From NCBI RefSeq assembly GCF_014805625.2, contig NW_023998433.1:4328260-4392259 (forward strand): 64,000 bases of DNA, read 5' to 3'. This DNA is from Glossina fuscipes (taxonomy: Eukaryota; Arthropoda; Insecta; Diptera; Glossinidae). The position numbers were made by a program, and so were the translations under genes. Shown here piece after piece: positions 1 to 59,505 of this stretch. Position 1 is the stretch's first letter. Each line of letters opens with the position of its first letter. A model generated the notes under the pieces. It was given only the letters and a program-made list of their open reading frames with translations. It was not told the DNA's origin and searched no databases.

Positions 1-762
1 CTTTCATTGAAAATAAAAGGACTCCAATATCTTCAAATAATATCGACAGATGTGCCATGTTCCTGGAAAATTGCGTATCCACCTCAGAACTTGGAAGTTG
101 TCTCTCCAATTTGAAGGGGAAGACACCTGGTCTAGACCGCATCTCATACCAAATGATCAGTGCTATGCCTAAGTCTAGTAAAAAGAAATTACTGGACCTA
201 TGTAATACGGCATTTATGACTGGCCATATACTCTACATGTGGAAACTGGCAACAGTTGTTCCAATTCCAAAGTCAAAAAATGTCTCCATCGCATCTGATT
301 ATCGCCCAATTTCTCTTTTATCTTGCCTCTCTAAGGTTTTAGAGAAGATTATGGCATCTAGATTATCTTGGTTTCTTGAATCCAAGAACCTGATAACAAA
401 GCAACAAGTTGGTTTCAAGCGGGGTAGAGGGTGCATCGACGCTCTGTTACATATTGATTATTTCACAAGCAAAGCAATTTCCGAACGAAATCACGTAACA
501 ATTCTCTCAATTGATTTCGAAAAAGCATTTGAAAGAGTTGGTCTTCATGTTATCTTAAGACTCTTGAAATCATGGAATGTTGCACCCAAATTCTTCAACT
601 ACATCAAATCATTCATGTCGCATCGGCGGTTCAAAGTTAGAATCAACAATGATGTCTCTGATTCCTTTCCGCTAATGAATGGCATTCCGCAAGGATCTCC
701 TCTTTCTGTCACGCTTTTCCAAATCGCCTTCAACGAAATTAGCAAAATTCTTTGTCGTGTAC
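1..762 (+). mobile_element. I-clade LINE copy 1, 5' segment (enters from outside the window)
   Basis: Reverse-transcriptase part of an I-clade non-LTR retrotransposon. It continues at 5434 after an interruption by a CR1-clade element. The join is supported by the second copy at 57298-59494, where sequence matching 720-758 runs directly into sequence matching 5436 onward. The 5' end of the element lies before the window. The copy is dead: it is split and also has frameshifts further on. Confidence 0.85.
57..762 (+). pseudogene. I-clade LINE reverse transcriptase, fingers/palm half
   Basis: Open for about 235 codons. Visible RT blocks are GKTPGLDRISYQM, the YRPISLLSCLSKVLEKI block, the GF(K)RGRGC block, the first catalytic aspartate in SIDFEKAFE, and NGIPQGSPLS. 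The YADD box that should follow is displaced 4.7 kb downstream to about 5455 by the inserted element. The last few codons of the open frame (after about 762) belong to the inserted element, not to this protein. Family assignment rests on the downstream RNase H and C-terminal Cys/His motif, which are features of the I clade. Confidence 0.85.
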
Positions 763-1183
763 CAGTCTGGCAACTCTGTCGCGCGGTATAGTCGTATATA
801 TTTTGTTTCGGCAATTAATATTTTAATTTTTTGTTGAATTTCGTGGCTATTCTGCCTTATAGTGTGTGAATTTATAATATACTTTGAGAAGTGAGTGAAT
901 TCAAAGTAAAAGAAATATTTTTCCTTTACGCTTTGAATCATTTGATTTTTGCAAATAAAAATTTTGAGCTCTGATATAAATCTCTCTTTTTTTTTTCGTT
1001 TTCTCTCTTTTTCTCTGTTATTTTTTTGCTGTTTGGAGTTTGTGTTGCTATTGATTTCTCGTTACAGTGTCAACCTAACAGAGAAGTTTTGCACAAATTG
1101 GTTGATAAATTTTTATGTTCAGGATTTTTTTAGTGATTTTTGTGTCTGTTCTTCATAATCCACAACTGTCTTTTTGACAGGAC

Positions 1184-2211
1184 ATGGAGTGTTTATATAC
1201 ACCTTGTCGGGCGAAATCAGGCCCGGATTCTGACAGATTCGTTTCTTTTTGGCTCTGCGAGCGCTTTGGTCATACAAAGTGTGCCGGTATTCTCGGCCGT
1301 GCTGCTGACGCAGTCGCTGATCCGTCTAAAGGCTTAAGATGGTCATGTCCTGACTGTAGGCAGTGGGACATTGACTTTTATAAACTTTTCACGGAGACCC
1401 GTTATGGTTTCTCGGAATTGAGTAGAAATCTCGGCTCCTTGTGGGAAAAGTTTGAGCTCATTAAGTATAGGTTTGATGAGACACTCATCTTCTACTCGTA
1501 GTGTAGCGTGTGGAACGTCACCTCTGGCTTTCTCCAAATCTAATTCGTTGGTACAAGTTACCGCTCCCTCTAACTCTAAAATGAAACGTAATGTTTCCGA
1601 TATTGCTGAGTCGGTTGGTAGCAAAACAGTTACAAACACCGGCAAGTCCATCGATGTTAAGCTACGCTGAAGTGGCAAGGGTATCTCCGCCCAGAGTCGC
1701 CAATCACTCTAATCAAGCACCATCGCCTAAAAGTAATGAAGAGAAAAATAAATCATCCTCTCCTCCTCGCTGTTCGCGTGTGAATGCTGGTCACCAGACT
1801 GGGCAAGTCTCACAAGCTGCCGGTACAAGGGCGATAACCCCATCTATATTTTCCCCTTCTCGAAACTCTCCTACTGCGAACCCCCCTCCTGTTCCAAATA
1901 ATGACATTTGCTTGACGGCAGTTCCTCCTAGAAAAGCAATATTTGTGTCAAGACTGGCACCTGAAACATCGGTGGATAACATAAAAGGTTATCTGGCGAC
2001 GAAAGTCCCATCAGTCAACTTAAAGCGTGTTAGCATCTTCAAAATGGCTCCTTCTCAAGTTAGGGCAATCTCCTCTTTTAAAATATTAGTTCCGGCTGAT
2101 ATGTTGTTAAACAAATCACTGTGGCCAGTAGGATCCTTAATTAAGGAATTTATCCCTCGAGATCGTCCCCGTAATACCAAGGCAATAGTCTTGTCGCCTT
2201 CAAAAAACTAA
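1184..2211 (+). pseudogene. CR1-clade ORF1 with PHD-like zinc finger, frameshifted
   Basis: The N-terminal part (1184-1501) has a Cys/His pattern typical of a PHD finger: CxxC near the start, then a WLCERFGHTKCAGI block, then WSCPDC. The reading frame changes twice, at about 1450-1500 and 1590-1660, to reach the C-terminal part (1591-2211), which is proline/serine-rich and then carries a domain ending with motif VGSLIKEFIPRD. The same C-terminal motif recurs in the minus-strand copy at 55905-56138. In the living element this protein would bind RNA or chromatin (family knowledge); here it is broken by frameshifts. Confidence 0.65.
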
Positions 2212-2213
2212 TT

Positions 2214-5090
2214 GTTTCTTCAGGCCCACTATCTCTCATTTATCAATATGTTAGGGGCCTAAATTCGAAAATTCGTTCCACTTTTCTAAATTCAGTGAGC
2301 ACGGAATTTTTCTGTTTGGCCTTTACTGAAACTTGGCTAAAACCCGATCTTCATTCGTCGGAACTTTTTCATAATTCTTTCCAAGTGTTTAGAAATGATC
2401 GAGTGAATCGCATTGGTGGTGGTGTATTAATTGCCATATCTGCGTCAGTCCCGTCCAATTTAATTGAATTTTCCACTTCTCCTGACGTTGAATTTATCGC
2501 TATTCGTGCGAATATGCCTGATAAACATCTATTTATAACCTGCTCCTATATTCCCCCAAATTCCGATATCTCCATTTACAGGAAACACGCTTCCCTCATT
2601 TGTAAAGTGGCCAAGCGCTCGAGACCCACTGATTTGGTCGTTGTATTGGGTGACTTCAATTTGCCTCAAGTCACTTGGTGTAGCACTGATAATTCTGGCT
2701 GTTTGGTTCCTACTTCAACGTCTGATAGGGCTGTTGTGTTCTTTAGTGAATTGTTTGATCATAATTTGGGTCAATATAATCGTACCCCTAATTGTAATCG
2801 TAGACTGCTTGATCTCTGCTTTGCCAATTTTCCCGAGATTTACGTAAATCGTTGTCCACCTTTTAGTTTACCAGAGGATCCTTATCATCCATCAATATGC
2901 ACTTCTTTTCATCATATTAATGCTGGTTTGTTGAAATGACTTAATGTGCCAAATCAAACTTTTTTAAATAATTATTATGATTTTCATAAAATCAATATTG
3001 TATTACTAAAACATCGTCTTTCACATCTGACGCTTGATTTCTCAACCAGTAGTATTGAAAGCTTATTGCCATCGTTCTACAATACATTAAATCTAGCTAT
3101 TGCTGCATCTGTTCCGATCAAGCATTGTCGACCTCGAAGCAGATGTCCCCCGTGGTTTAATAAGACAATTAAATATCACAAGAATAGAAAAAACTCGCTA
3201 TTCAAAAAATATTCGAAAAGTGGCTCTGCGCTCGACTATGTCGCTTACTCGGTGGCGAGTCATAGATTTAACTTCCTCAACCATCATTATTACTGCAGAT
3301 ACCTTCAGTTCATTAAATCCTCTCTGTTTGCTAATCCTAAATTCTTCTTTAAATTTGTTAACTCTAAAAGAAAAATTTCCACATATACCTCTTATGTTTC
3401 TTTTAATGGCTCTGATTCCTCGGATGATTTTGAAATCTCAAATCTATTTGCTGAGTATTTCCGACGAAACTTTTCGATTGCTAATTTCGATTTATCAGCA
3501 AACTACCCATAGCCTATAACTAACTCGGCTTCAATACCTAACTTAATTATTTCGGAAGATGATGTTCTTAAAGGGTTGAGTTCTCTAAAATACAGTTGTT
3601 CGCCTGGACCTGATGGAATTCCATCATGTGTACTTAAATCTTGCGCTGTCGAGTTATGTGGTGTGATCTCAAAGATTTTTAACATGTCCTTGTATTTAGG
3701 TGTTTTCCCTTCATGTTGGAAGAGTAGTTTCCTTATTCCTATCCACAAGAGTGGAAGTAGACAATTTGTTGAGAACTACAGAGGCATAGCCAAGTTGAGT
3801 GTCTTGCCCAAGTTGTTCGAGCGTATTGTGACTCAGCATTTGGCCTTTGCCATTAATTCGTATATTTCTCCGCACCAGCACGGCTTTCGTAAAGGGCGAT
3901 TTACAATCACCAACTTGTTAGAGTTTACCTGTCATGTTTTCAAGGCTTTTTCTAGCGGCTCTCGCACAGATGTTATTTACACTGATTTAAGCAAAGCATT
4001 TGATATGGTTAACCATAGACTACTTATCTTTAAACTCCAAGCCTCTGATTTCCCACCCTACTTAGTGAAATGGATAAGCTCTTATCTGCACAATAGATCC
4101 TTCAGGGTTTTGTTTAACTTCATCACCTCGGATGAATTCCCCGTTACGTCTGGCGTACCTCAAGGAAGTCACTTAGGTCCTATTTTATTTAGTTTATACA
4201 TTAATGATCTCCCATCGGTGGTTAATTCCAGCCAGATCTTAATGTATGCTGATGATGTGAAACTGTTTTCTTCCTTCTCTGTTGAATCGCAATCACATCA
4301 GCTTCATGGTGATTTGGATAATTTTGTTGCATGGTGCTCTTTGAATCTTCTGAAACTAAATCTGAGTAAATGTAAGAAGCTTTCATTCTCAAGGAGAAAG
4401 TCATTCATTACTCAGTATTTCATAGATTCGCATAAGTTGGAGGACGTCGATTCGATTAAAGATTTAGGCTTTCTATTTGACCATAGATTACGTTTTAACT
4501 TGCATATTGAGCTCTCGATTAGCAAAGCTAGGTCCGCGCTTGGTTTTATAAAAAGGTGGTCCAAAGAGCTTGATGATTCCTACATTACGAAAAGGCTGTA
4601 CATGTGTTTGGTTAGACCCATACTCGAGTATGCCTCAGTTGTGTGGCCTCCTTCATATAGGTGCTACGTAGATTCAATTGAATCTGTTCAAAAGAAATTC
4701 TTGCTGTTTGCCCTTAGAAATTTGGGTTGGGATCCGATTGCCTCTCTTCCTCCGTATGAACTTAGGTTGCTTCTGCTGTCCCTACCGTCTCTTGAGAAAC
4801 GTAGATTTGTTCTTGGCGTTTCCTTTCTAATTAAAGTAATAAATGGTGCTATTGACTCGCCTTCATTACTTGGTGAAATAAACTTTAATGTCCCTAACCG
4901 CTTCTCTAGGCACTTTATCTTGGTTAAGCTTAATCAGTGTAAATTTAATTATGAGCTGTTCAATCCGCTCAGAGTCGTTTGCAAGAACCTAAATGACGTC
5001 TACCACTTATTCTCGTTATCGGACTCTTTAAAGTCCATTAAAGCAACATTGCTTAATACGCGCGATTTACCTATGTCGTATTTAAACTAG
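2214..5090 (+). pseudogene. CR1-clade ORF2: AP-like endonuclease plus reverse transcriptase, two in-frame stops
   Basis: A single reading frame covers the whole ORF2 except for two stop codons, TGA at about 2937 and TAG at about 3510. The endonuclease half shows the YVRGLNSK start region, the FTETWLKP block with its glutamate, VVLGDFNLPQVTW, and a PYHPSI block at the position of the usual SDHxPI. The RT half shows SPGPDGIPS, the LIPIHKSG block, YTDLSKAFDMVNH, SGVPQGSHLGP and MYADDVKLF. The C-terminal thumb region ends at 5090. Few lesions mean a fairly recent loss of activity. Confidence 0.85.
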
Positions 5091-5433
5091 CTTTTATCCT
5101 TAAAAAGTCGTTACGTTTCGAAAGTGAATTATTGTCAATTTATTATCGGTTGCCAGGCTTATGCATGTTTGCGATGGCTTCGGGGTTCATTTGCAATTTG
5201 GTCCTGTACCGGTTGTAAGTGTGCTCCTATGCTGATAGTATACATGTTTTTTTTTCTTTTTTCTTTTTATTTTTTTTTTCTTCTTATTTGTTTTATTGTG
5301 CTTATACTCAATTTTATTGTTAATTAATATAAGTTTTGCATTAAGAGCCAATTGAACTCGACTGTTATTTGTTTAGTTGAGTTTCTAGTTTAAGTGGAAT
5401 AAATAAATAAAATAAATAAATAAATATATAAAT

Positions 5434-7215
5434 AAGAGTGGAACATTGTCTCTACGCGGACGATGTATACATTTTTACAAAAGAAAAAGACAACGCGAAA
5501 GCAATCAACATCCTTGAATCTATTGGACGAGAGATCTCCGCATGGGCAAACTCTTCAGGGGCTAAAATTTCTATACAAAAATCAAAAAAAATGCACATGT
5601 GTCGAAAACAAATGTGCGATGCAAAAAATCTACTGATGCATATTAATGGCTTACCAGTACTGCATATTCTCGGGCTCACGTTTTCCAACAAACATTGGAA
5701 AGCACACTATATGCCGTTAAAAAACTCTATTTTAACAAGTGTGAATTTCATACAGTACGTTGCTTGGAGAAGCAATGCGCATATTAGCACTATTGCTTAT
5801 CTTACCAAAATGCTTGTGTTAAGCAAGATTGACTATGCTTTGATAATTTATGGCAATAGCTGCAAATCTAATACCAACATCTTTAACCCGGCCTATCACC
5901 AAGCCGTCAGAGCAAGTTGTTATGCTTTTTGGACGACGCCCATAAATAATATTGTAACGAAACTGGTCACCCAATTTTAGAAAATAGACTTTATGAGTTA
6001 AAAGCCAAAATAGTCCCCAAGCTTCTTAATTCAAACAAATCTATTCTCGGTGATGACAGGAAAAAGATTATTATTGCGAAGAAAATTCCAAAGTCACCAT
6101 CTGCAATTGACTATTGTATGTACGTCGCAAAGGAATTGAACATTCCCTTAAAAATTTTCCGCTCTTTTGGTGTTAAACCTCCATGGATTTTGAAATACTG
6201 CTCTTTTGACATTTCGCTGTCTGTGCACAAGAAAGAAAATACACCAAATTACGTCTTCAGGAATCTAATAGCTGAAAAAACCCAAATATTAGAAAGTACT
6301 GGTTGGAATCTTTTATACACAGACGGCTCAAAATCTTCTGGTCTGCCTCATGTTTGTGCCGTGGTTGATCCTACAGGACGAGTTCTTCTCAACCGCATAT
6401 TTCACGAAAATACTGCAACTTTCACAACCAAACCCAGAGCTATCCTTCACGCTGCAAACCTTGTCCATAAAAACAAACTCAAAACCGTCATTGTTACCGA
6501 CAGTTTGCCTGTATTACAAGCTATTCGGAATCCTTCGACTTCGAGATGGAGCACCATCAACAAATTAAGGAATATAATTACAACATCCGACGGAAAAATT
6601 AAAATGTTATGGGTACCAAGTCACATCGGTTTATTGGGAAATGAGCAGGCTGATCGAGCGGCAAAGGATGCTGGTTTTGCTCCTCTAATTATGGATGATG
6701 TCATGGAAAAGTTGGATCTTCAAAGAAGAAAAGTTAAAGAGAAAATTGCAGAAGAAAATTTACAATACCATCATCAACACTACTCTTCCATTAACCCCGA
6801 ATTAACTCCACCTTTATATCCAAGAAACGTTGAGAAAATGAAGATCCAAACATTTTCGAGAATTCGTTGGTCATACAATTGCAACTCACCAATGGATCTT
6901 GAAGAAGTCTTCCTCCCCAATCTGCAGTTGTAGACAAACTCTCACCATAAAGTACATTCTCTGCGACTGCCTCAAAACTTGCTTGGCTAGAAGTATTGCA
7001 TTTGGAACGATTAACCCTTTGGACTTTCTACAATCAGCTTCAGAACCGAATATCAATTCTATATATTACCTTATTAATACTTCTAAGCACATTATCTAAT
7101 GTACATTTATTTATATTAGAGCCGATGGCCTGTGTTGCTAGTGCTCAATGTCTTTTTTTTAGTCTAAGAATTTACTTCATTAGTCTAAAATTATAATAAT
7201 AATAATAATAATAAA
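5434..7215 (+). mobile_element. I-clade LINE copy 1, 3' segment with TAA-repeat tail
   Basis: Downstream half of the interrupted LINE. It begins with the YADD region, then thumb, RNase H, C-terminal Cys/His motif, a short 3' UTR (about 7100-7190) and a TAA repeat tail ending near 7215. The 3' UTR phrase GCTAGTGCTCAATGTC and the following block recur at 59420-59490 and, reversed, at 34826-34920, and are related to the SINE tails at 9238-9337 and 23500-23574. Confidence 0.85.
5438..7099 (+). pseudogene. I-clade LINE RT thumb, RNase H and C-terminal zinc-knuckle region
   Basis: Begins with CLYADDVYIFTKEKDN (RT catalytic box). A small deletion near 5957, relative to the copy at 58250, shifts the frame. 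The next open stretch (about 6000-6933) holds RNase H: LLYTDGSKSSG, VTDSLPVLQAI and VPSHIGLLGNEQADRAAK supply three of the four acidic or histidine sites. The expected catalytic glutamate reads TTKPRAI here but TTEARAI in the other copy, so it is lost. A further frameshift near 6870-6900 leads to CSCRQTLTIKYILCDC, a Cys/His motif in which the His is replaced by Tyr. Confidence 0.75.
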
Positions 7216-9064: not shown

Positions 9065-9307
9065 TTGAGATGTGTATATCAAACACATATTGATTAACTG
9101 CATCTATTTTATTTATTACAAGTAGAGCGGGCTTACTATTAGAAAAAACAACATCCGCCTGAGTAGCCGAAGGGGAGGAATCTCGACTAGCAAGTCAATG
9201 GTCGTGGGTTCGAATCTCAAGTGCGGTAGAGTTTTTAATAAAAAGCCGATAGCCTTAGATGCTAGTGCTTTTAAGAGTTTAGTCTTAGAATTTATTTCTC
9301 TGGCGAA

Positions 9308-9338
<31 letters not shown>

Positions 9339-10000
9339 GAAAAAACAACAAATTTTTTGATACCATGAATTATAGCCACCTTATTAATAGCATGTCTAAT
9401 GGCAAGGAATTCAATCAAAGTCAAGGAAAGTTCCTCCGCATCTTTGACCCTTTGTGCTATTTTAGACAGACGCCTCACTACCGAGAAGCTAGACATTATG
9501 TTCAACGAAACAGTCACTGGCAAATATATCATAGCCTTTGTTGTAATAAAGAAGAAGCTTTTCTTGACATAAGACCTTCATACAAGAGAGATTGACATTT
9601 TGCTTTGAGGTAGAGATCGATTCAAGACTTCGGAAGGAAGATTGACTTTAAACAGACGGTTCATAAGGAGGTTAAGTGAAATGAAATTTTCTATTTTTTT
9701 AACGAAATTGGTGCAACTGTGAAATAAAATGGGAGGGTGTTGAATAGTTGAACTAGAAAAGGTTAGATCCCAGAGACTGCTCGTCGTGCGACCACTCCGA
9801 TTGCAATAAAAGGTAGTATTATCATTATTTAACACAATAAAACTGCTGGCATTGATGGTGCTAATAAGAATTCGCCTTTGTTGGTCGAGAGCTGATTGCC
9901 ATACAAGCAATGTCTAGCATCTCCAGCTAGAATCACATTTTGTTCACCATCAACAAAGTCACACAATCTCTGAATCTCATCACAAAAAGTATGTACACAA
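9065..10000 (-). pseudogene. Degenerate LINE relic: endonuclease plus RNase H, RT missing
   Basis: On the minus strand, 9578-10000 resembles an APE-type endonuclease: VILAGDARHCLYGNQ stands where I/R1-type elements have a GDFNxxHxLWG block, followed by FIVLNNDNTTFYC and LWDLTFSSSTI. The frame at 9360-9535 and its continuation left of the SINE resemble RNase H: GYDIFASDCFVEHNV, then a frameshifted AIRHAI helix, then FVVFSNSKPALLVI, in which the usual FSDS aspartate is Asn. The RT that should lie between the two is absent. A plus-oriented SINE at 9154-9337 splits the RNase H. Confidence 0.55.
9154..9337 (+). mobile_element. tRNA-derived SINE with LINE-like tail, intact, 13-14 bp target duplication
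   Basis: The head looks like a class II (Ser/Leu-type) tRNA: GCCTGAGTAGCCGAAGG resembles a pol III box A region and GTGGGTTCGAATCTC is a good box B. The tail from about 9238 contains GCCGATAGCCTTAGATGCTA and a TTTAGTCTTAGAATTTATT block, closely resembling the 3' UTR of the I-clade LINE at 7119-7215 and also ending in TAA repeats. It is flanked by perfect direct repeats AGAAAAAACAACA at 9141-9153 and 9338-9350. The acceptor stem is not paired, so it is not a tRNA gene. Confidence 0.8.
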
Positions 10001-11141: not shown

Positions 11142-14100
11142 TTACCAAAAGGGACACCACCCAATATAACATTGACACAAATTTTCATTGTTAGTGGCTT
11201 GCTGTATAAGTAAGTCCACCTGTTGCTGTACTGTGTAGCTGGTTTGCGTTTGGAAATCGGTACCGGTTAGTTTACGTTTAACACGTTTGATTACTTTGCT
11301 TGCTTTGCCATTGGTAATGTCTGCGTTGGCTGCCGGAACACCAAGGCCGCCAAATAACTGGTTATCGTAGGCCTTTGATTTGGCGATATGATTACTGTGG
11401 AGCATAGATTCCTCTACAGAGTTACTTAGGCTATTACCATTGTTTCCCACCATATTGGTGGTATTGGTGGGATCGTTTGGATTTTTAGGACGATGGTTTT
11501 TTGCTTCCGTATCTAATAACCGCCAATTAAGCAGTGGATCATATACAAAAGCTTCCAATACAGCCATCAAAGAGTCCTTATTGCGTCGTAAGACCAGCAT
11601 AACACTCTCACATGTACGGCGATAAGTACCCTCTATGCCCGTGACCTCCATGGCTTTAATAAGCATGCGTGTTAAGCGGAATGGTATTTTTTCGGGGAAT
11701 TTCTCACGAGTCATTGCTACTTCGAAACAGTCGCCAAAATCTATATGTAATATTTTGCCACTCATCCGATCCAGCATTAGATTTGAGGGATGACGGTCTC
11801 CTAAGCCCAAGATATAACCAACCATGGACATAACTGCTAAGGAACGTGTATAATTGGTGCGTCTTTCAAACCACACTTCAGAGGATGGAGATTTTAGCCA
11901 TAACAATTTTGCCAAATCATCGCCTGGAGTTTGAGCCAAAGCGTATTCGAAAACTTCTACTTTTTGCATTAAAGTCAAATGATCGTAATCAGGGGCAAAA
12001 CTTAACATGGTACGGTGTTCCTGATTCAAAGGCACCTTCTTCTTATCGCGGTAATCTCGTATTAAAGTGTGTAAAGTATCGCAGTGTGGCACCCATCCAA
12101 TTAGACCCGAATTTGTGCTAAGAGGTATAACAGCGTAGCGTTGTATGGCTAAATTACGTCTAAAAGTGTCAGGATCATCTAGTAATAAAGTGTTGACCAA
12201 AGAGAACAACTGCATAACTCTTTCATCTTGACGCAAGTCTTCGTGACCTTTCAGCAAATACATGTAATCCTTGCCGTTCGAACCTCGAATACACAGCTTG
12301 CGAGGTCTTTGTTTAGATGTTATTACTTGTAAATTCGTTTTAATAAAACTGATTCTAATCAGTTCTTGCCCTGGATTATATGATCCTGGCACAGCTAGTT
12401 CCAAATCTTTGCAAGCTAACAATTTCGGTGAAACATAAGGCAACTCCAGTGAGGTTAGTTGTGGCAATTGCCTTGATATTTTTTGAAATACGTGATAATA
12501 AATGTCCCAAGCATGATCTAAATCCATTAAAGCATTCGAAGACTTATAACGTTGGGTCCATTCATAAGCTTCGGTTAGTTCACGGCCATAAGCTTGAGAA
12601 AAGGAAGTCTCTTTTAGAGTTTGAGGTCCCCTTTCCAACATAGCGTGCAAGGGTTCCAAGATGTCAAACATTCCTTTAATATTGCGGTCCCCAAAATAAA
12701 GACGCGAAGCTTCTTCCAGGCCTTCATGCCACTGCTCATGCCATAGAATAGCTACTCTAATCAATTCTTCGCTTATCATCATGGTCTGCTCCACTAAGAC
12801 TGGTGAATGTTTACGCATGGAATCCAAAATTTTGAAAGCTGCATTTTTACGAGCTACAGAAGCAGATTTTGAGGCTACCGTCAAAGGATAAACCAAAGCT
12901 TGAGGATGGTATTTTCCTATGTCGATAAGCAGTTGATGTATTAATTGCCCGACTAAGTTGCGATGTGTATCAATGCGTGCTATAAGCTGGGGAATAACTT
13001 GAAGCCAAGTGTTGATTTCAATTAGTTTCATTCCCGACAATAGAGCATCATAAACTTCGGAATGATGGCCATAATCAAACCACAAAGTTAATAGACGTAA
13101 TGTGTCCTGCAAAGAATTTCCTTTTATAAGGCTTATGGAACGGAAAAAGCCGTGTACTGCTGGCACTGCGTATTGTTCAATAATAATGCGTTCCTTCTCT
13201 AGGAGCAATGCAGGGTTGTGCACTTCTATGGGAATTTTGTAACTTTCTAAAGCCTGCTTTTGAGCTTGAACTACCTTGAAATTCATGTAAGCATATAAAT
13301 GCCACGCCTTATAACAATTGGGATCATAATTAGTGGCCTTTTCAAAGCAATTTAAAGCTCCTTGCACTGCTTCTGGATCCAAGCCTTCAAGTTTATTTTG
13401 CCACATTGCCAACCGTAAATAACAACGGGCCAACAAACGATGATCTTCATGTTTGCATATTGTGTCTGGCATGCAACTCAACTGAGAACTGTAGGCTTTT
13501 ACGAAGCGGCTTAGTTGTTCATAAGCACCTTTCATATTATCCGAGGCTGCCATATGTTTTGTGTAAGCGTAAGTGACTTGTGGTAAGTGATAAGGCAAAC
13601 TTTCATTAGCATTGACACTAGGATCAGTACCCAAAAGCATAACTAAAGTTTTGTGCGATTGCATTAAGGAACCTGATTTACGACAGAGGCTAGCATACTT
13701 CAGCCAAGTGTGAATGTCATCATGAGGTTTAACAACAAGAGAGTGAACTTGAATAATACGTCTCCAATCTTCCACTAAACGTTGACCTCCTTGCAAACGT
13801 TTCCACCACATATTCTTCAAAGGTTCCCGACGATCCGGTATCAGTTTATATTGTATAACTTCTTCTAGCTCAGCTAGCATCTGCACGCATACCATAGCAC
13901 CATAAGCCCTTTCATAGGACTCACCAGCCATGGAAGTCAATTCGGTATCAAGTAAATCACGAGTTCCATCGATCAAGCGTTGAGCTGTTTCAAAATCCTC
14001 ATAATGCACAGCCAAAACAGCTCTATAAAAGCTACCATCTTGCGAATCCTCCGGTATGCACTTAACATATTCTTGCATTGATTCCCAATCTTGTAGACCC

Positions 14101-17100
14101 CAGGCTGCAACAGCTGCCAACGGACCTGCTTTGCATTTAGTTTCCCGGGAGAAAGTATCCCATTCTTCTTTCGCTACACTACTAAGATCCGACCATTGGC
14201 CTAAAGATTCCAGGCAACGCAAATAACCTAAGTGAGATTCCATATCAGTAGAATCCTGTCTCAAATTACGTTGATAATATATCAAAGCTTGGTCCCAATT
14301 GTGCAGTTTTTCATACCATCGACCTTGAACTTTAAGTTCGTCTTTAAAACGCGAGTTCTCACTACCCACTGCATTTCTGTAAGTTGTAAGTAAACCCTCC
14401 GCAGCTTCTTTTTGCTGCAACTTATTGTTGATCAGAATCAATGACTCAAACACATGAGGATCTTTGTGGGTCATGAATTCCTCTTCTTTGTAACGCAACG
14501 CTTTGGCATACGCTCGGCAGGCCATGGCGCGTGTACCCAAAAGTTTAGGGTCTATGAGTATTGGATCTTTATCGCAATGTTCCATAAATTCGGCCAAATT
14601 CAAAATTGTTTGCGTAATCTCTGGCATATCAGTCACTTGCAATGCCTGTATTAATGATTGCGTTAATTCATTTTTATGTTCTGGCGATAATTCAGTCCAA
14701 CAGGATATAAAGGCCGCATTGAAAAGATCTCTTAGGAGTTTATCGTAATCTTCGGCTAACACACGACAAGCTCGTAAAGCATGCGATCTTGATTCTCGTA
14801 GTAAACCTATTGATAACCGCTTTAACCATTCAACCCAATCGTCTTTGGAAACACGTCTGTTCACTTGCCACGCCATGCATAGCTGCTTCGTGGACACGTT
14901 TAGCTTCTTAATCGTAGTATTAACATCACTTAAAGTAGCCACCATGTTGCTGCTCTTAAATTTGGCTTGACGCATTAAAAACTCCTCGTCCAAACACATG
15001 GTGGTATTGCTTTGTAGTTTAGCCAATAATTTCTCGTATTTCGAATCGACAATACGCTGCCGAGTTACGGTACGATTAACCAATGGCGCAAAAACTAAAT
15101 ACCTTTTCCCCAATTGTATAACTAACGAACACAAGGTAGACATGGCTTGATCTCTTAGTTCAGGTTCAGAGTCTAACACTCTCACCAAAGGATGAATAAT
15201 ACGTGAAGCAAAATCTGTGAAATCCAAAATCCAGGCTAAACTGTCGATAGTTTCCAAAGCTACTAAAGAAACCTGTTGCGGCACATAAGGAGAATCATAT
15301 AGTCTTACTATGGGCGGTACTACTAAATGTAAATAATCATCCAAATTATTGCCGAATTTCTCTATAGCCTGCAATAAACGCTTTGTTACATTTCGATCCT
15401 TTGAACTATCGTGCTGCAAAACACGTAGGATCTGTGGTATTAATTGAGCCAAATAATTGCGGAATTCTCCACCCAGCGCAACAGCAATTTGCTCTATTAA
15501 ATTTATTAAAGTTGATTGCAAGGGAGTATTATTGGTCCAAAATTCTTTAATAAGTTTAAATATGTCGTTCATATAGGTAATTATGTGTTGGCGTACGATT
15601 TCCACTAAAATCGCCAGTTGTTGGAATAGAAACTCTCTTAAATTATTATTCGCTGTGCGGACATTTTCTAACAGACTTGGGAGAACCTGTGATAAATATG
15701 GAACACATTTAATTCCTAAACTTTGAAAAATATAAGTGACAGCCTGAACAACACTAGTGTGGCGACTACTTAGAGTCGGGTCGCGCAAAATTCGCATCAG
15801 AGCGGCTATTGCCACAGCCGGGTAATATTCATCTAGAATATTTCCCATATTAACTAGTAATTCGGCAGTGGATATATCTTGATTTTCATCCACTTTATAA
15901 TCAGATAAAGAGATTAAAACACTGTCTTTTTGACTATCGATCAGACCCTTATTCATTTTATGCTTGTAAGGATCCATGGCTCCCAATAAACCTAAAACGC
16001 GTATTGTTTCTCGACGTATGGATCGTCTTTGTTCAGTACGTAAGAAATTTATCAAAATATCTATCAAAACGGGATATTTATGATAGGGTGTAACTACGCG
16101 ACCGGTGGCTGAAATTAATTGACCTAACGTCCATAAAGCTACGCCGCGTTTATCAGGTGAACCAGCATCTCCTAACATTTCTAATAGAATAGCTAACAGC
16201 TCGTCAGCCCACATTTCCATTTCTTCTGATCCTCCGTTAACTTCTGCTAAATCACCGATAGCTCGCAGAACGTTTAGTACCACACCAGGGTTTGATTCGG
16301 GTTCTCTAAGTTTTGGTACTAAAATACTCAGAATTGGGTTCATGTATGTCGATATTAAGCGCGGCGTACTTATAACCAAATGGTCCAACATACGCGCACT
16401 TTGTTCTTTATTTCGGCTCATGCCCGAATGCTCCAACTCTGTTAACAATTGTACCATAACTTTTCTCAATTTTGGCATTACATAAGCAGGATTCATGGTC
16501 GATAAACGTCCGATGGTAACCATTGCTAATTCTCGTATCTCAAAAATTTCATCATTAAGAGTAATAAATAAAGCACTCAACGATTCGGGTTGCGCTAATT
16601 CTGCATCAAATGTTTCATCTAATGAACGTAGAATGCGAACCCTTACATTACAATCCATGTCGGTTATGGCGACGATAAGCAAACGTTCAATGACGTGTGA
16701 TACAGTCTCAATTAAAGTAGCCGAATTTTCTATGGTATCGGCTGTTCGTACTGCCAGTTTCAATAAATGTGTACAGGTTTGTACAGCTTCCAAGCGTATC
16801 TCTTGTTGGTCGTGATTAATGAAGTAATCGGCAGATCTGTTAACGAGGAAGAAAAACTGGTATCAAATATTATGTTGCCACTATCAGTGGAATGCCAATT
16901 TACCGTTGAATAAAATCCAACATATTTTGTTCTTCAAAATTAAAGGTCCCTAAGGTTCGCAGAGCCAACACTATGGTAGGAACATCTTGCGGCAAATTTA
17001 TTGAACTTTCCATAGGGGAATTAACTGGTAACATTCCTGCATAAAGTGCACCAGATGTTTTATTCATTAAAATTTGAGATAGCACACCAATTAACCCTTC

Positions 17101-22735: not shown

Positions 22736-23405
22736 AATACAATTGCAAAGTTTGCCATATTTGCATATTTTATCCTATACAAAGGTATTTATAATTTACC
22801 TTGAGCTCAAGTACACGATATATATGTGAGCTAACCGCAAACGTAATATAATTATTTCAATTTAGTTAAGGAGTTTCTCATTTCCAATCACTGAGCCGTA
22901 GAAAAAATTTCGGTTTTGTTTTACGTTGCATCCACCGAACAACAAGCCTAGACAGATAAACACATACTTGGGTTGCTCAAGGTGATAAATAATAAGGCGT
23001 GTATCGAAAGGAGTGGATCTTTCGGGATAAAATGAATTTTTAATTGGCAAGTGAAGCATTGGTATATGAAAATTATGTGTAATTCAAAATTTAATGTTTT
23101 GACAGCATTTTCTGCAAGTTATTACTGAAAGCAGACATTGAAGGTGTATTGAAGCATTTCGTTAAAGCCCTTATTTCTCTGTTGTTGTTTTGGTTTGGTT
23201 TATTTTTTTGCAATATATGCAATGTATGTATTGTCTTACTAACTTACTTACTAATCTATGGTATTAATATCAAGCGCATGTTAAAATATTAGAATTATCA
23301 ATTGGTTTTGGAATCCGATTTAGCTGATAACAAAGTATTTGTTACTTTTGAAGAAAGTGAACATCTAAACGCGTAGTTTCACTCACAAATAAAACACACA
23401 TATAT
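22736..23405. other. Intergenic, no feature recognised
   Basis: AT-rich spacer between a DINE-like copy and a SINE. No gene-like frame with support. Confidence 0.5.
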
Positions 23406-23574
23406 CCACCTAAATGGCCGAGTAGCCAAACAGTGTCGACTAACAACTCAATGGTTCATGGGTGTAAATCTCAAGTGCGGCAGAGTTTTTAATAAAGCCG
23501 ATAGCCTTGAATGCTAGTGCTTTAAGACTTCAGTCTTAGGATTTATTCTGTGCTAATAATAATAATAATATATT
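23406..23574 (+). mobile_element. tRNA-derived SINE, second full-length copy
   Basis: Same design as the copy at 9154: TGGCCGAGTAGCC box A-like head, a decayed box B (ATGGGTGTAAATCTC), AAGTGCGGCAGAG, then GCCGATAGCCTTGAATGCTA and a TAA repeat tail. Candidate target duplication ACATATAT at 23398-23405 and 23575-23582; it sits next to a TA repeat, so it is weaker evidence than at 9141. Confidence 0.75.
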
Positions 23575-26199: not shown

Positions 26200-27275
26200 C
26201 GCTAAAGTAAAGTGGTTGGAAGAGATGGAGCTGAAGTTAGCGGAGCATAAGACAGAGGTGCTAATAAGTAGCGAAAAACGTATAAAAAATGTGGTATACG
26301 AGTAGGACAAGACATCACGCAGTCGTCTCCTGTTCTCAAATACCTCGGAGTCATGTCGGACTATCGACTCAGCTCTAAGCACCACGTGGATTACACCGCG
26401 AAAGATTTGGTGCCAATAGCAAAATGTAGCTTCAGTCATGACGCATGCGCCCAGTTTGGACGTGGGCATTTACCGTAAAAGCAGTGTACCGTTTTAGCGA
26501 GCTGAGGCAGATGAGCGGATTACGAGCAGTATTGCACGACGCCACCCTTGTAGTCGCAGGCGCCGTACCAATCTATATTTTGGCGAATGAAATAAGGCGC
26601 AGCTACGAACGGTGTCGCAAAAAGAACCGCTTCCATATAGCCATAAAAAAAGACGAGCGGCTAGTGTCGGTGAGAAGGAAGGAAAAGGAATATGGACGTG
26701 CGTTCTTATCATAAACATAACGCGATGGACCGAAAGGATACACGGGGAGGTAAATGATTATTTCACCCAGTTCCTGAGTGGTCATGGTTGCTTCTAGAAG
26801 TACCCGTGCAGGTTCAGACACGATAGCTCACCAAACTGCCCGCAATGTAGGGAAAAAAGAAAGGTGCAGAGCACGCTATATTTCACTGTAAAAGCTTAGA
26901 GAATGGCAGACCCCAAGTGAGGTATTGCAGATGATAATTGACTGCAACAAAGTCTGAACATCATAGATGAGTTCTTAAGGAAGGAATTACGGCACCTAGA
27001 AAGACAGTGGAGAGTAGAGGAAGTGGAAGGTAATAATGAACTCCACTGAGGTCCCACTATGCAAAGCGCATTAATTACAACCAAATCCTGCGAAGTAATA
27101 GCTAACGTTGGTCCCGCGGAGGAGAGTGATCGAGATAATGAGTGTGTGGAAGATAGATTGAGTACATAAGCGCCATGGAGGGCGAATCGTGCATACCACT
27201 GGAACGGGCCAGTAGTATCCGTGAAAGATTTCTACTTCTAGATCGCATAGCGAATAAAACAAAGCAGAGCGCATG
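26200..27275 (+). pseudogene. R1-clade LINE relic: RT C-terminus and Cys/His tail
   Basis: Scattered plus-strand frames match the end of R1-type ORF2. Near 26211 WLEEMELKLAEHKTEVLISS matches the region after the RT palm; near 26340 a YLGVM-type block is frameshifted; near 26500 MSGLRAVLHDATLVVAGAVP matches the C-terminal region of R1-type proteins; near 26820 DSSPNCPQC precedes a decayed Cys/His motif; near 26980 FLRKELRHLERQWRVEE is the typical C-terminal helix. There are many stops and shifts. No RT catalytic box remains. Confidence 0.65.
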
Positions 27276-34825: not shown

Positions 34826-34920
34826 TTATTATTATTATTATTATTATTTTAATTTTAGACTAATGAATTGAATTCTTAGACTAAAAAAAGAGACATTGAG
34901 CACTAGCAACACAGGCTATC
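34826..34920 (-). mobile_element. I-clade LINE 3' end, extreme 5' truncation
   Basis: Reversed copy of the I-clade 3' UTR with its TAA tail. TTAGACTAAAAAAAGAGACATTGAGCACTAGCAACACAGGCTATC is the reverse complement of 7118-7160 with few changes. Only about 95 bp are present, a typical product of incomplete LINE reverse transcription. Confidence 0.75.
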
Positions 34921-35149
34921 ATAAAATATGACAAATACACCATATAAATTGTCAATTTTATTCTAAAAATGGAAAAGAACGGCGGTTTCCATCCATTATA
35001 ATGTATGAAAATTCAAAAATGGTCTTAATTTCATCAAATTTTACAGGTCGATAATGTACGATAAATTATTGTTTTACACTGATTTTTGTCGAAATATATT
35101 AAAAGAGATAAATTTTCTTCATACCTTTTTTGGATGTGAGTAGTCACTC

Positions 35150-35398
35150 AAGAGGCGTCTCTTATTCGTGTACCCCGATGACGGCTAAAAAGAAGTGAGG
35201 AAAGAGAACGAAAGAAAGAAATTCGGAGGTGGTGGCCGCAGCTTAGTAGATGCGTACTCAATCGATAAGCATATGCCTTCATCAACTGAGTACTCACTAC
35301 AGCTACGACCAAAGTAAACTCTACCGCACTGAGATCTGAAATCGCGAACACTGAGTTGGTAACAGCGATTCTTACTCTCTCTACTCAGCTACTACTTC
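35150..35398 (-). mobile_element. SINE-like element, same tRNA-type head, different tail (variant)
   Basis: Read on the minus strand from 35398: AGCTGAGTAGAGAG, then ACTCAGTGTTCGCGATTTCAGATCTCAGTGCGGTAGAGTTTA. This parallels the head of the SINE at 9154 (GCCTGAGTAGCC then TCAATGGTCGTGGGTTCGAATCTCAAGTGCGGTAGAGTTT). After the shared GTGCGGTAGAGTTT the sequence diverges completely and no TAA tail is present. Target duplications were not identified. Confidence 0.5.
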
Positions 35399-38717: not shown

Positions 38718-39983
38718 TTAGTTTGGAGAAAAAGAAATCCATTATTTTTATATGAACTTCAGGACTTTATTTAACATGCTTCGGATTGTCCGACTTGGGT
38801 CGAATATGCACCGTTTTGTTGTACGATTTGTTGCCATTTTAAAGGTAACTTCAAAATGCCTCTCTCATAGAAGTCCTGGTCTCTATTTGCAAAAAACTCT
38901 AGTAGTCGATTTTCACAATCGTCCCTAGATTCCAATTTTTTATCATTAAAGAAATTTTGCAATGCAAGGAAAAGATGATAATCGCTTGGTGCCAAGTCCG
39001 GACTGTATGGCGGATGCATTAAAACTTCCCAACCAAGCTCCCGAAGTTTTTGGCGAGTCACTGTAGATGTGTGTGGCCTAGCGTTGTCGTGGTGGAACAC
39101 GACATCTCTTCTGTTGGCCAATTCTGGCCGTTTCTGGTCAATCGCTATGTTCAAACGGTCCAGTTGTTGACAGTAGAGATCAGAATTAACGTTTGGCCAT
39201 ATGGAAGCAACTCATAATAAATAATCCCCTTCCAGTCCCACCAAATGCATAGCAAAACCTTCCTGGCCGTTTGAGGTGCTTCACCGCTCTTTGACCACGA
39301 TCGTTTTCGCACAGGGTTATCGTATGTGATCCATTTCTCATCTCCAGTCACCATCCGTTTAAGAAATGGGTCTATCTCATTCCGTTTGGCCAAGGCTTCG
39401 CAGATGGACATTCGATCCATCATGTTTTTTCTGTTAATTGGTGTGGCACCCAAACATCGAGCTTCTTTTTGAATCCAGCTTTGTGTAAATGGTTTAAAAC
39501 TGTTTTATGGTCGATTTTTAGCTCCTGGGCGATGTTACGACTGCTAACATGCCGGTCAACTTCGATCATTTCTCCGATTTTATCGACATTTTCGACGACC
39601 GGCCTACCTGTGCGAGATGCATCTTTAAGATCAAAAATTCTTGAACGGAATCTACGAAACCAAAATTGCACATAATTGGCTGTTACAGTATCGGAACCAT
39701 AAACACCATTCACAATTTTAGCCGCCTGGCTTGCATTTTCGCCTTTGTCAAAGAAAAACTGTAAAATGTACCGAATTTTCTCTTTGTTCACTTCCATTTT
39801 TAACACGCTGTAACTCACAACTGAACGCACCAAACAAAAAACAGCAAAAGAATTTTTTTTACTGCGAAATGTACAGTATGTAAATGTACAGTATCGGAAA
39901 TTGGTTGATCGATACTTTACGAGAAATCTATCAGTGCAGCCATCTACCGAAAAAAATAATGGATTTCTTTTTCCCCAAACTAA
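38718..39983 (-). mobile_element. mariner (Tc1/mariner superfamily), 1266 bp, full length
   Basis: Inverted ends of about 30 bp: TTAGTTTGGAGAAAAAGAAA from 38718 and its near-complement TTTCTTTTTCCCCAAACTAA ending 39983. Each end is bounded by TA (38716-38717 and 39984-39985), the mariner target duplication. The transposase runs on the minus strand. A 325-bp piece of a nearly identical copy lies at 44384-44708. Confidence 0.92.
38771..39797 (-). pseudogene. mariner transposase (D,D34D type), two single-base frameshifts
   Basis: About 342 codons, the usual mariner length. The start chosen is at MEVNKEKIRY (39797). An N-terminal paired-type helix-turn-helix region contains YVQFWFRRFRS and SSRNIAQELKIDHKTV, then WVPHQLT. 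The catalytic triad is visible: VTGDEKWITYDN, FHHDNARPHTS and YSPDLAPSDYHLF. Two one-base losses in A/T runs, near 39425-39435 and near 39190, break the frame; everything else reads through. The segment SGEAPQTARKVLLC looks a few residues short compared with related mariners (from memory, tentative). Apart from the two shifts the protein would be complete. Confidence 0.88.
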
Positions 39984-40169
39984 TATATTACAAAATAAAC
40001 ATTTTTATTTTGCTGTTGTTTTTTCTATAATTTTTGTATTTCTCGGCATAAAATTAAGCGCTATGGCGCCGCTTGGTATTTCTCGACATAAAATTAAGCA
40101 TGCGCGATCGTGCTGTTTGGGATTCTTCGACAGTGTTTTTTAAATACCGTCTGGGACTCAAACGGTTAA

Positions 40170-42029: not shown

Positions 42030-44080
42030 AATGTATTTATTTACTTTGTTTAATTATACATGAAATTCAACTAAAACAAATTGACAGTCGAGTTCAATTG
42101 ACTCTTAAAAAAAATCTTATATTAATTAATATGAAAACCTACTGTAAGTATAATAAAACAAATGAGAAAGAAAGAAAAGAAAAAAGCATGTACACAACTA
42201 GCATAGAGCCACACCCACAACCATTATAGGACTAAATTGCAAATGGACCCGTAAGCCATCGCAAACATGCAAAAGCTTGGCAACCGATAACAGTAAACAA
42301 CAACTAATTTTCGAATCATAATGACTTTTTAAGGTTAAGAGTTAGTTTAAGTACGACATAGGTAAGTTACGCGTATTAAGCAATGTTGCTTTAATGGACT
42401 TTAAAGAGTCCGATAATGAGACTAGGTGATACACGTCATTTAGGTTTCTGCAAACAACTCTGAGCGGGTTAAACAGCTCATAATTGACTAAGCTTAACCA
42501 AGATAAAGTGCTTGGAGAAGCGGTAAGGGACAGCTTATTTTACCAAGTAATGCAGGCGAGTCAATAGTACCATTTATTACTTTGATTACGAAGGAAACAC
42601 CAAGAACAAATCTACGGTTCTCGAGAGACGGTAAGGACAACAGAAGCAACCTATTTTCATAGGGGGAAGAGAGGCAATCGGATCCCAACCCAAATTCCTA
42701 AGGGCAAACAGCAAGAATTGCTTCTAACAGACTCAATTGAATCTACATTGCACCCACACAAAAGAGGCATACTCGAGTATAGGTCTAACCAAACATCTGA
42801 ACAGTCTTTTCGTAATGTAAGGATCATCAAGCTCTTTGGACCACTCCTTTATAAAACCAAGCGCGGACCTAGCTTTGCTTAACGAGAGCTCAATATGCAA
42901 GCGGAAAAGTAACCTATGGCTAAATAGAACGCCCAAATCTGTGAACGAATCGATGTCCTCCAACTTGTGCGAATCGATGAAATACTGAGTAATGAATAAC
43001 TTGCTTCTTGAGAAAGAAAGCGTCTTTCATTTATTTAGATTTAGTTTCAGAAGATTTATCTATAAAAATTGGTGACCGTAGATCTTCCTTTCCGAAAGCC
43101 ATGCTGGTGTCGAGAAATATACCAAATAATGGCAAAGGCCAAATGCTGAGTCAGAACTCGCTCGAACAGCTTAGGCAAGACACTCAACTCGGCTATGCGT
43201 CTGTAGTTCTCAACAAGTTGTCTACTTCCACTTTTGTGAATAGGAATAAGGAAACTACTCTTTTAACAAAAGGAAACACATAAATTCAAGGACTGGTTAA
43301 AAATCTTTGAGATAACATCACATAACTCGACAGCGCAAGATTTAAGTACACATGGATGGAATTCCATCGGGTCCAGGCGCACAAGTATATTTTAGAGAGC
43401 TCAACCCTTTAAAAACATCATCCACAGAAATAACCAAATTAGGAATTAAAACCAAGTTAGTTATAGGATATGGGTAGTTTGCTGATAAATCGGAATTAGC
43501 AGTCGAAAAGTTTCGTCAGAAGTATTCAGCAGAAAGATTTGAGATTTCAAAAGCATCCGAGGAATCAGAGCCATTAAAAGAATCATGCAAGGGATGTGTG
43601 GAAACTTTTCTTTTTGAATTAAGAAATTTAAAAAAGTCTTTGGGATTAGCAAACAGGGAGGATTTAATGAACTGAAGGCATCTGCAATAATAATGATGGT
43701 TGAGGCAGTTAAATCAATGCCTTGCCGCCAAGTAAGCGAAATAGTCGAAAACGCAGCCACTCTTCGAATATTTTTTGAACAGCGTGTTTTTTCTGTTCTT
43801 GTAATATTTAATTGTCTTATTAAACCACGGGGGAAAACGTGCTTCGAGCTCGGGACTGTTTGATCGAAACAGATGCAGAAATAGCTAGATTTAATATATT
43901 GTAGAACGATGGCAGTAAGATTTCAATACTTACAGGTGAGAAATCAAGCATAATATGTGAAAGATGAGATATTAGCAGTAAAATATTGATTTTATGGAAA
44001 TCATAATATTTATTTTTTAATAAAAGCCTTAGATGCTAGTGCTTTTAAGAGTTTAGTCTTAGAATTTATTTCTCTGGCGA

Positions 44081-44111
<31 letters not shown>

Positions 44112-56130: not shown

Positions 56131-57286
56131 GGCGACAAGGGGGACGTCTGAAAACCTAAAGGAAAAGGCGGCTTTACTATTTTTAACAGTCAGCACTGAC
56201 AGACTACGTTAATCATGAGTATGCATTTTTAATAGATGGTAGAAATGCCATGGGAAAGATTCAATAGGAGGGAAAATGACTGTCATATGAATTGACTGAA
56301 AATGCCATTTTGAACCGCTTCAACATCGCGGTTTCGTTGCTTGCCCGGCAAAAACAAAAGAGTCTTTTGTGGCATATTGAGATTGTGTGTCTACTAAGAA
56401 AGTTCTAAGCGCAAACGGTCCTGGGTCAGTGCACGAGAATTTTGCTGTGCTTATGGTAGGATAAGCCAGGTATAGTATATTACGAGCTGCTAAAACCGAA
56501 CGGAACTATTTCTGCGGATGTTTACTGACAATGGAATTTCTTTGTCTTGCAAAGGCTTACTTTTCGCAGTAATGGCTAAATTGGAGGGGGCAGAAAAAAT
56601 TGGCCCATCCAATTCAAATGTTTTTACATCAAGTTCGCCAAAATACTATTGCTCAGCGATTTTTGTCTTATAAGGATTTTTTCGAAATACGGTGCTACGG
56701 TATATGGTAAGTCACCATAAATATGATCCTATTCCGTTAGTATATTATACACACTGTATTGCACTGCAATTGGAGATTCGGAATTGACTTCGCCTCCGTT
56801 TTTACGGTTGTCCTTCTCCTTTCATCGCGTCTGTCTAGTACCCACGTAGACGGTCTAGTATTGAGTATTTTGAACTTAGTTTATGTTTAGAAATCAAAAC
56901 GCAAAACCTCATATGGCTAAAAAGAATCTGAAAATATTGCTTTCAACAATCAGAAAGTTGGGTAAGCAGATAATGTTCAGCTATAAATGGGAAAAATACC
57001 TTTCAGGATCGTTTATAAAAAGCTTGCAATTTCTTTTAAAGTAAAAGGCGTCCAAGATTCATATCGAAGCGAACGTAAACATTTTAGTCCTTTCATTAGA
57101 GACAATTTCAGAATGCTATGAATTTCCTTTTTTTTTTTGGTTTTTAGTTAAATTTTTACGCCGCATTATGTCCGCGTCCTGCAGACAAGGTCCATAAGCT
57201 CTTTCGAATTTAATGCTTTAAATAAGAAGATCTAACAGCGGTTGTTATTAGATCTAGAATGAAGTATCATACGAGTCAAACGATTT
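56131..57286. other. Intergenic, no feature recognised
   Basis: Sequence between the CR1 copy C and the I-clade copy 2. No gene-like frame or repeat recognised. Confidence 0.45.
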
Positions 57287-57297
57287 ACATGAGAAAA

Positions 57298-59384
57298 GAT
57301 TATGGCATCTAGTTTATCTTGGTTTCTTGACTCCACGGACCTGATAACAAAGCAACAAATTGGTTTCAAGCGTGGTAGAGGGTGCATCGACGCTCTTTTA
57401 CATATTGATTATTTCATAAGCAAAGCAATTTCCGACAACGAAATCACGTAACAGTTCTCTCAAAAAGCATTTGAGAGAGTTGGTCTTCATGTTATTTTAA
57501 GACCCTTGAAAACATGGAATGTTGGACCCAAATTCTGCAACTAAATCAAATCAGTCATGTCGCATCGGCGGTTCAAAGTTAGAATCAACAATCATCTTTC
57601 TGATTCCTTTCCGCTAAAGAATGGCATTCCGCAAAGATCTCCTCTCTCTGTCATGCTCTTCCAGATCGCCTTCAACGAAATTAGCAAAATTCTTTGGCGT
57701 GTATCAAGAGTGGAACACGAGTGGAATACGCGGACGATGTATACATTTTTACAAAAGGAAAAGACAACACGAAACCAATCAACATCCTCGAATCTATTGG
57801 ACGAGAGATCTCCGCATGGGCAAACTCTTCAGGGGCTAAAATTTCTATACAAAAATCAAAAAAAATGCACATGTGTCGAAAACAAATGTGCGATGCAGGA
57901 AATCTACTGATGCATATTAATGGCTTACCAGTGCTAAACGTGCAGACGCTGCATATTCTCGGGCTCACTTTTTCCAACAAGCGTCGTTGGAAAGCACACT
58001 GTCGTCGGTTAAAAAATTCTATTTTAACAAGGGTGAATTTCATACAGTACGTTGCTTAGAGAAGCCATGCGCATATTAACACTATTGCTTATCTTACCAA
58101 AATGCTTGTGTTAAGCAAGATTGACTATGCTTTGATAATTTATGGCAATAGCTGCAAATCTAAAATCAACATCCTTAAACCGGTCTAGCACCAAGCAGTC
58201 AGAGCAAGTTGTTATGCTTTTCGGACGACGCCCATAAATAATATTATAATTGAAACTGGTCTCCCAACTTTAGAAAACAGACTTTATGAGTTAAAAGCTA
58301 AAATAGTCCCCAAGCTTCTTAATTCAAACAAATCTATTCTCGGTGATGACGTGAGAAAGATTATTATTGCGAAGAAAATTCTAAAGTCACAATCTGCAAC
58401 CGACCATTGTTTGTACGTCGCAAAGGAATTGAATATTCCCTTAAAAATTTCCCGCTCTTTTGGTATTAAACCTCCATGGATTTTGAAAGACTGTTCTTTT
58501 GACATTTCGCTGTCTGTGCACAAAAAAGAAGATACTCCAAATTACGTCTTCAGGAATCTAATAGCTGAAAAACCCCAAGTATTGGAGAGTACTGGTTGAA
58601 ATCTTTTATAAACAGACGACTCAAAATCTTCTGGTCTACCTGCTGTTTGTGCCGTGGTAGATGCTACAATCTTCTCAATCACATATTTGACGAAAGTACT
58701 TCAACGTTCACAACCGAAGCCAGAGCTATCCTTCACGCTGCGAACCTTGTCCACAAAAGCAAACTCAAAACCGTCATTGTTACCGACAGTTTGCCTGTAT
58801 TATATGCTATTCGGAACCCTTCGACTTCGAGATGGAGCACCATCAACAAATTAAGGAATATAATTACAGCACCCGACGGAAAAATTAAAATGTTATGGGT
58901 GCCAAGTCACATCCGTTTATTGGGAAATGAGCAAGCTGATCGAGCTGCTTCTGCTCCTCTAATTATGGATGATGTCATGGAAAAGTTGGATCCTCAAAGA
59001 TACATTGGAAGAAAAGTTAAAGAGAAAATTGCAGAAGGAAATTTACAATACCATCATCAACACTATTCTTCCGTTAACCCCCAATTAACTCCATCTTTAT
59101 ATCCAACAAACGTTGAGAAACCCAAGATCCAAACATTTTCGAGAATTAGCCCTGGTCATACTATCGCAACTCGCCAATGGATCTTGAAGAAGTCTTCCTC
59201 CCCAAACTGCAGTTGTGGACAAACTCTCACTATAAAGCACATCCTGTGCGACTGCCTTAACTTTTCCTTGGCTAGAAGTATTGCATTTGGAACGATTAAC
59301 TCTTTGGACATTCTAAAACCAGCTTCAGAACCGAATATAAATTCAATATATTACTTTATTAATACTACTAAGCTCATTATCTAA
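57298..59384 (+). pseudogene. I-clade LINE ORF2 (RT, RNase H, Cys/His), copy 2
   Basis: RT remnants with FKRGRGCIDALLHID. An 11-nt deletion near 57461 removes the first catalytic aspartate motif present in copy 1 as SIDFEKAF, and a stop follows near 57541. EYADDVYIFTKGKDN is intact. The RNase H frame (58596-59384) keeps the catalytic glutamate (TTEARAI), VTDSLPVL and NEQADRAA, but its first DGS motif is lost to a frame change near 58600. The C-terminal motif CSCGQTLTIKHILCDC is complete. Product non-functional. Confidence 0.8.
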
Positions 59385-59494
59385 TGTACATTTATTCATA
59401 TTAGAGCCGATAGCCTGTGCTGCTAGTGCTCAATGTCTTTTTTTTAGTCTAAGAATTTATTTCATTAGTCTAAAATTATAATAATAATAATAAT
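57298..59494 (+). mobile_element. I-clade LINE copy 2, 5'-truncated, with 11-bp target duplication
   Basis: Starts abruptly at sequence equal to position 350 of copy 1 (GATTATGGCATCTAG) and ends in a TAA tail. Direct repeats ACATGAGAAAA at 57287-57297 and 59495-59505 are perfect, showing one clean insertion event. It preserves the uninterrupted order that copy 1 lost to the CR1 insertion. Confidence 0.9.
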
Positions 59495-59505
59495 ACATGA
59501 GAAAA

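Follow-up and report, generated by a model that had tools for sequence, protein, structure and literature searches.

A SINE family of the tsetse fly Glossina fuscipes with a tail resembling that of its probable LINE partner

A window of 64,000 nucleotides from the genome of the tsetse fly Glossina fuscipes (C441:4328260-4392259 of a 366-Mb, 709-contig assembly) contains a complete short interspersed element (SINE) near its 9-kb position, and the tail of this SINE resembles the 3′ end of a LINE present in the same window. We consider it very probable that the SINE is transcribed by RNA polymerase III (pol III) and copied by the enzyme of the tail-matching LINE. We observed directly, and describe below, the anatomy of the SINE and its copy number, the duplications of its target sites, the tail it shares with the LINE, and a matching target start in those LINE copies for which a duplication was found. 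The coordinates are summarized in Table 1.

Table 1. Features of the SINE and of the partner-type LINE in the 64,000-nucleotide window.
Feature	Position	Strand	Remarks
SINE, complete copy, 185 bp	9153..9337	+	
Left target-site duplication TAGAAAAAACAACA	9140..9153	+	Final A doubles as first base of the SINE
Right target-site duplication	9337..9350	+	Pairs with left copy at 9140-9153
Box A-like motif TAGCCGAAGGGG	9164..9175	+	At +12
Box B GGTTCGAATC	9207..9216	+	At +55
T5 run between head and tail	9232..9236	+	At +80; in 30-copy consensus
LINE-like tail, blocks AGCCGATAGCCT..TGCTAGTGCT and TTTAGTCT.AGAATTTATTTC	9244..9309	+	
(TAA)9 repeat	9310..9336	+	
Older SINE copy	23404..23570	+	23436-23570 84.5% identical; 23404-23435 assigned by eye
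5′-truncated SINE copy, 8-bp internal deletion	44012..44109	+	85/85 tail bases identical
5′ part of second LINE copy, split by nested stretch	347..764	+	
3′ part of second LINE copy: RT fragment, RNase H (PF00075), 3′ UTR, TAA repeats	5453..7215	+	
Short LINE 3′-end fragment	34834..34920	-	94% to 59-kb copy
Left target duplication TACATGAGAAAA of 59-kb LINE	57286..57297	+	Right copy 59494-59505
5′-truncated LINE: RT remains, RNase H, 3′ UTR, TAA repeats	57298..59493	+	

The original prediction described an element of 184 bp between perfect 13-bp duplications. The element is present, but its true length is 185 bp, with one base more at the 5′ end. An A precedes the first base assigned earlier (9154) in 30 of 30 genome copies, which places the start of the SINE at 9153. 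The predicted duplication is exact (9141-9153 equals 9338-9350) and extends one base further to the left, resulting in 14 bp. As the A at 9153 is common to the SINE and the flanking repeat, the boundary carries an ambiguity of one base. In the consensus of the 30 copies, the invariant A is located 11 bases upstream of the box A-like motif at +12 and is followed by box B at +55, the T5 run at +80 and the tail; the individual copies end in 3 to 12 TAA repeats. Box A and box B are thus located near a fixed 5′ end, as in the promoter of tRNA-type SINEs, and the good box B claimed for the head was found. Both boxes were assigned by their consensus motifs and lie at the spacing usual for such a head. 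A deletion within box A of the 9-kb copy, suspected from the 23-kb copy, was rejected, as the same head is found in 30 near-identical copies. The T5 run that separates the head from the tail is a possible weak stop signal for pol III, and at this position, upstream of the tail, termination could occur before the tail is made.

In the genome, a 36-base pattern spanning the junction of head and tail was matched at 2,360 sites when up to 3 mismatches were allowed (1,207 forward and 1,153 reverse), a count that leaves out more divergent and 5′-truncated copies; the reversed pattern, used as a control, gave no match. During the search with the full element, in which 40 of 1,949 first-look candidates were scored, 40 of the 41 rows had identities of 99-100% and began at query base 1, while the remaining row had 92% and began at base 3. 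In 20 random 10-kb regions (containing 10,508 N), one full-length copy with 93% identity was found; a further three regions contained tail pieces, of which one was truncated by the region's border. The 30 copies fetched for closer analysis were the best matches and not a random set; one 158-base core was common to 16 of them, and each differed from the consensus by at most one base. As these copies were chosen by similarity, they do not give the mean age of the family. The identical copies suggest that the family was probably active recently, and older copies such as the 84.5% copy at 23 kb indicate activity over some time. Searches with the box B region gave no matches in viral contigs or in contigs of prokaryote genomes, and the SINE had no match in phages.

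Sequences with a head like that of this SINE but with a different body and a different, pyrimidine-rich tail (CCACCACCTCC) are located at 35090-35400 (minus strand) of the window and at L036:4640-4840. The likeness of the heads was seen by alignment alone, and the two sequences may represent an older SINE family in which this head is joined to another tail. Among the remaining features of the window, the open stretch 11142-16862 on the minus strand encodes the kinase TOR, whose first 500 residues show 99% identity with the Glossina fuscipes fuscipes protein and 94% with the Calliphora vicina protein. The open reading frames 38771-40004 and 44010-44774 contain mariner-like transposase sequence, recognised by eye, and the latter joins mariner-like, LINE and SINE-tail pieces. 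A match to the R2 retroelement RNA model of Rfam at 27149-27238 remained below the threshold (29.8 bits at a cut-off of 38, E 0.034).

Copies lacking target-site duplications would have spoken against the original prediction, but a clear duplication was found in 28 of the 30 sampled copies. In an exact search, 21 of the 30 loci carried a duplication of at least 10 bp, compared with 1.0% of 3,000 controls with swapped flanks. With a looser search, which allowed up to 2 mismatches and shifted ends and to which this control does not belong, 28 loci reached a score of at least 9. The two remaining loci, L017 and L020, have imperfect duplications (11 bp with 1 mismatch and 15 bp with 2). One of the 28 is locus L028 (G000:C93:379364-379720), where two SINE copies are arranged head to tail, 2 bp apart. 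The second copy sits directly on the TAA tail of the first, and the repeat at this locus is therefore confounded. Lengths among the 28 ranged from 10 to 21 bp, mostly 11-15 bp. The duplication began with TA in 26 of 28 cases, at base frequencies of A and T of near one third each, and was preceded by T in 23 and by C in 5. TA also occurs within the tail of the SINE, which makes the right boundary ambiguous, but the left copy of the duplication shows the target as it was before insertion. In many loci, the TCCG start is separated from the left duplication by 1-6 bases, the A included, and bases other than this A may have been added without a template. For three copies that were not among the best matches, the exact search gave a 9-bp repeat (ATAATATTT) at 44003-44011 beside the 44-kb copy and no duplication of at least 9 bp at the 23-kb copy or at L034. 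Scattered copies, target duplications and a simple-repeat 3′ end together correspond to the dispersal pattern of tRNA-type SINEs.

Two longer copies of the partner-type LINE are present in the window, and RNase H was found in both, in the 59-kb copy with a score below the curated cut-off of Pfam. The copy with its tail at 7119-7215 is a single insertion interrupted by a nested stretch (347-764 and 5453-7209). This stretch, at about 765-5452, holds another LINE with matches to endonuclease and reverse transcriptase (2175-5090); no RNase H match was obtained in its scanned open reading frames. Elsewhere in the genome, the LINE copy L051 has an open ORF2 of 1,234 aa, in which the domains are ordered as endonuclease (PF03372/PF14529), reverse transcriptase (PF00078) and RNase H (PF00075), and three further copies have open frames of 1,241, 1,241 and 1,246 aa with no stop in the match. 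This order of domains marks the I group. With the TAA repeats taken into account as well, the LINE likely belongs to the I clade, while its strict placement is unproven. Among the best 120 of 1,512 protein relatives, the closest were unnamed (54%), and the named ones came from Bactrocera, Rhagoletis and Haematobia (38-48%). No protein named I factor was among these 120, and the automatic names were jockey or X-element; the name jockey was not adopted here.

Target duplications were also searched for at five ends of this LINE, and convincing ones were found at two of them. The 59-kb copy is flanked by a 12-bp and the copy L047 by a 13-bp duplication (TAAGCAGAAATTT); both start at T|TA, and both copies end in TAA repeats. 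For the 7-kb copy, the 5′ end of which was not located, only unconvincing 9-mers were obtained. The ends at 34 kb and at L035 showed no target duplication, the latter being ambiguous within poly-T. In the two LINE copies with a convincing duplication, out of five ends, its T|TA start and length agree with those of the SINE duplications, which were clear in 28 of 30 loci. This agreement would fit the use of one endonuclease, on a LINE sample too small to establish it.

The SINE tail and the LINE 3′ end are 73-75% identical over 93-100 columns, with gaps and including the TAA repeats. For this comparison, the two LINE copies of the window served as reference rather than a LINE consensus. When the TAA repeats were removed, the local alignment score was 48 with the 59-kb copy and 38 with the 7-kb copy. 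In the 3′ UTR of the 59-kb copy, the match falls into one block of 26 bases and another of about 21, which run in order towards the 3′ end. For this copy, the maximum of 20,000 dinucleotide shuffles was 35, and the maximum of 691 other window segments, with related loci masked, was 27; a chance match of the tail was rejected on these two controls. The likeness of the SINE tail to the LINE 3′ UTR, predicted for 7119-7215 and 59400-59494, lies above chance at the latter, and the 3′ end of the SINE is homologous to that of a LINE in the same genome, as in other pairs with shared tails. When nine SINE and LINE tails, picked by hand, were aligned, they were seen to share a small hairpin (TAGC..GCTA); its covariation is weak, with a two-sided change in one of eight pairs.

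Together with the insertion signature of the LINE copies that have a target duplication, the tail match supports the claim that the SINE uses the enzyme of the local LINE, and we regard mobilisation by this enzyme as the best reading of the sequences. The proposed mechanism would begin at an internal pol III promoter in the head of the SINE, from which an RNA starting with the A at 9153 would be made. The tail of this RNA imitates the 3′ end of the LINE, and the LINE protein, which comprises endonuclease, reverse transcriptase and RNase H, would bind it as the recognised part. After nicking of the target at a T|TA site, the UAA repeats would prime target-primed reverse transcription of the SINE RNA. 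Slippage could produce the variable number of TAA repeats, and repair of the staggered cut would leave a duplication of 11-15 bp.

Among the alternatives, it is unlikely, yet still worth considering, that the SINE is real but owes its mobility to another, more closely related LINE with a better-matching 3′ end. The tails of the SINE and of the window LINE are only about 75% alike, and this divergence, at approximately one quarter of the positions, leaves room for a closer subfamily as the true partner. The LINE family is also large (its RNase H region gave 4,143 first-look candidates, of which 122 were scored), and at least two types of tail occur among its copies. However, the tail type of the 59-kb copy clearly matches the SINE (48 against at most 35), the TAA repeats are common to both, and in the two LINE copies with a duplication, its length and start are like those of the SINE. 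A far weaker alternative holds that the tail likeness is due to chance or AT-rich convergence and that the enzyme recognises the TAA repeats alone, in a relaxed manner as with L1 and Alu. The repeats are common to both elements and could suffice to prime reverse transcription, but without them none of the 20,000 shuffles and none of the 691 segments reached the observed score, and the 3′-ward order of the match adds to this, which makes the explanation highly improbable. That the element is no SINE at all, but a 5′-deleted LINE derivative or another short repeat with a box B-like word by chance, would agree with the missing match to the Rfam tRNA model, but it is scarcely credible given that the head fails to align with the 3′ end of the LINE (score 12) and that all 30 copies begin at one and the same base, 11 bases ahead of the box A-like motif.

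A tRNA Ser/Leu origin of the head is unproven. The Rfam tRNA model gave no match in the SINE even at E values up to 10, which speaks against the preferred reading of a pol III-transcribed SINE copied by the enzyme of the LINE. Rfam scans in general yielded no meaningful match to it, and no tRNA genes were detected in the 64-kb window or in 50 fetched loci. Folding of the whole SINE RNA was not beyond that of shuffled sequences (z -1.16).

Among known systems, 58 SINEs with LINE tails are described in the extracts of Ohshima (2013; PMC3747384) considered here, and CR1 and RTE partners predominate among them. Tail-sharing pairs generally have a common 3′ end, which in an example includes the terminal repeat unit. 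For protostomes, one pair is given in these extracts, Gecko of Aedes aegypti with I-74_AAe/MosquI. Like the tsetse pair, it occurs in a fly and involves a SINE that has a tRNA promoter and shares its 3′ end with an I-type LINE; the host, however, is Aedes aegypti instead of tsetse, and the two are likened by description and not by sequence homology. The Drosophila I element, according to the same source, ends in TAA repeats, as does the partner LINE. The tsetse SINE is a fresh example of a type of SINE/LINE pair already known from Aedes.

For higher flies, SINEs are few or lacking according to several published reports. Attardo et al. (2019; PMC6721284) called SINEs "very scarce" in six Glossina genomes, in which much repeat sequence was unclassified. 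According to PMC5084420, Phormia regina lacks SINEs (39 doubtful insertions) and Drosophila has none, and in Philornis downsi they were not detected (PMC9210292). The latter paper reports SINEs in the other species compared, including G. morsitans, and its extract describes no family. A tRNA-derived superfamily was reported in all species studied in PMC6327564, the main text of which does not name Glossina; the relevant passages describe no family. Of 234 SINEs in SINEBase, 23 are from insects (PMC8010984), and the passages of a Calliphora paper (PMC3630058) mention SINEs in general terms only. No description of a tsetse SINE was found among the matches listed for the open-licence literature. 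This agrees with the earlier statement that no SINE of this type had been described in these flies, while the general type is known from Gecko.

It is possible, although we would rather doubt it, that no SINE as well defined and as recently active was known from the higher flies before this one, that it is maintained by an I-type LINE whose reading frame is open, and that its copies can serve as tsetse markers. The reports of SINEs in G. morsitans and of a tRNA-derived superfamily lower the odds of being first. If that reading is true, thousands of copies, some of them identical, would be a ready marker set for tsetse populations, and the T5 run in the 30-copy consensus would mean that T5 does not halt fly pol III, or that RNAs ending at T5 are a product of their own. 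Young copies could be used as insertion markers in a disease vector. Defined by 2,360 junction copies and accompanied by a likely partner, the family would be another I-type pair in flies beside Gecko, and the tsetse pair would offer a system for testing how such a LINE chooses its RNA.
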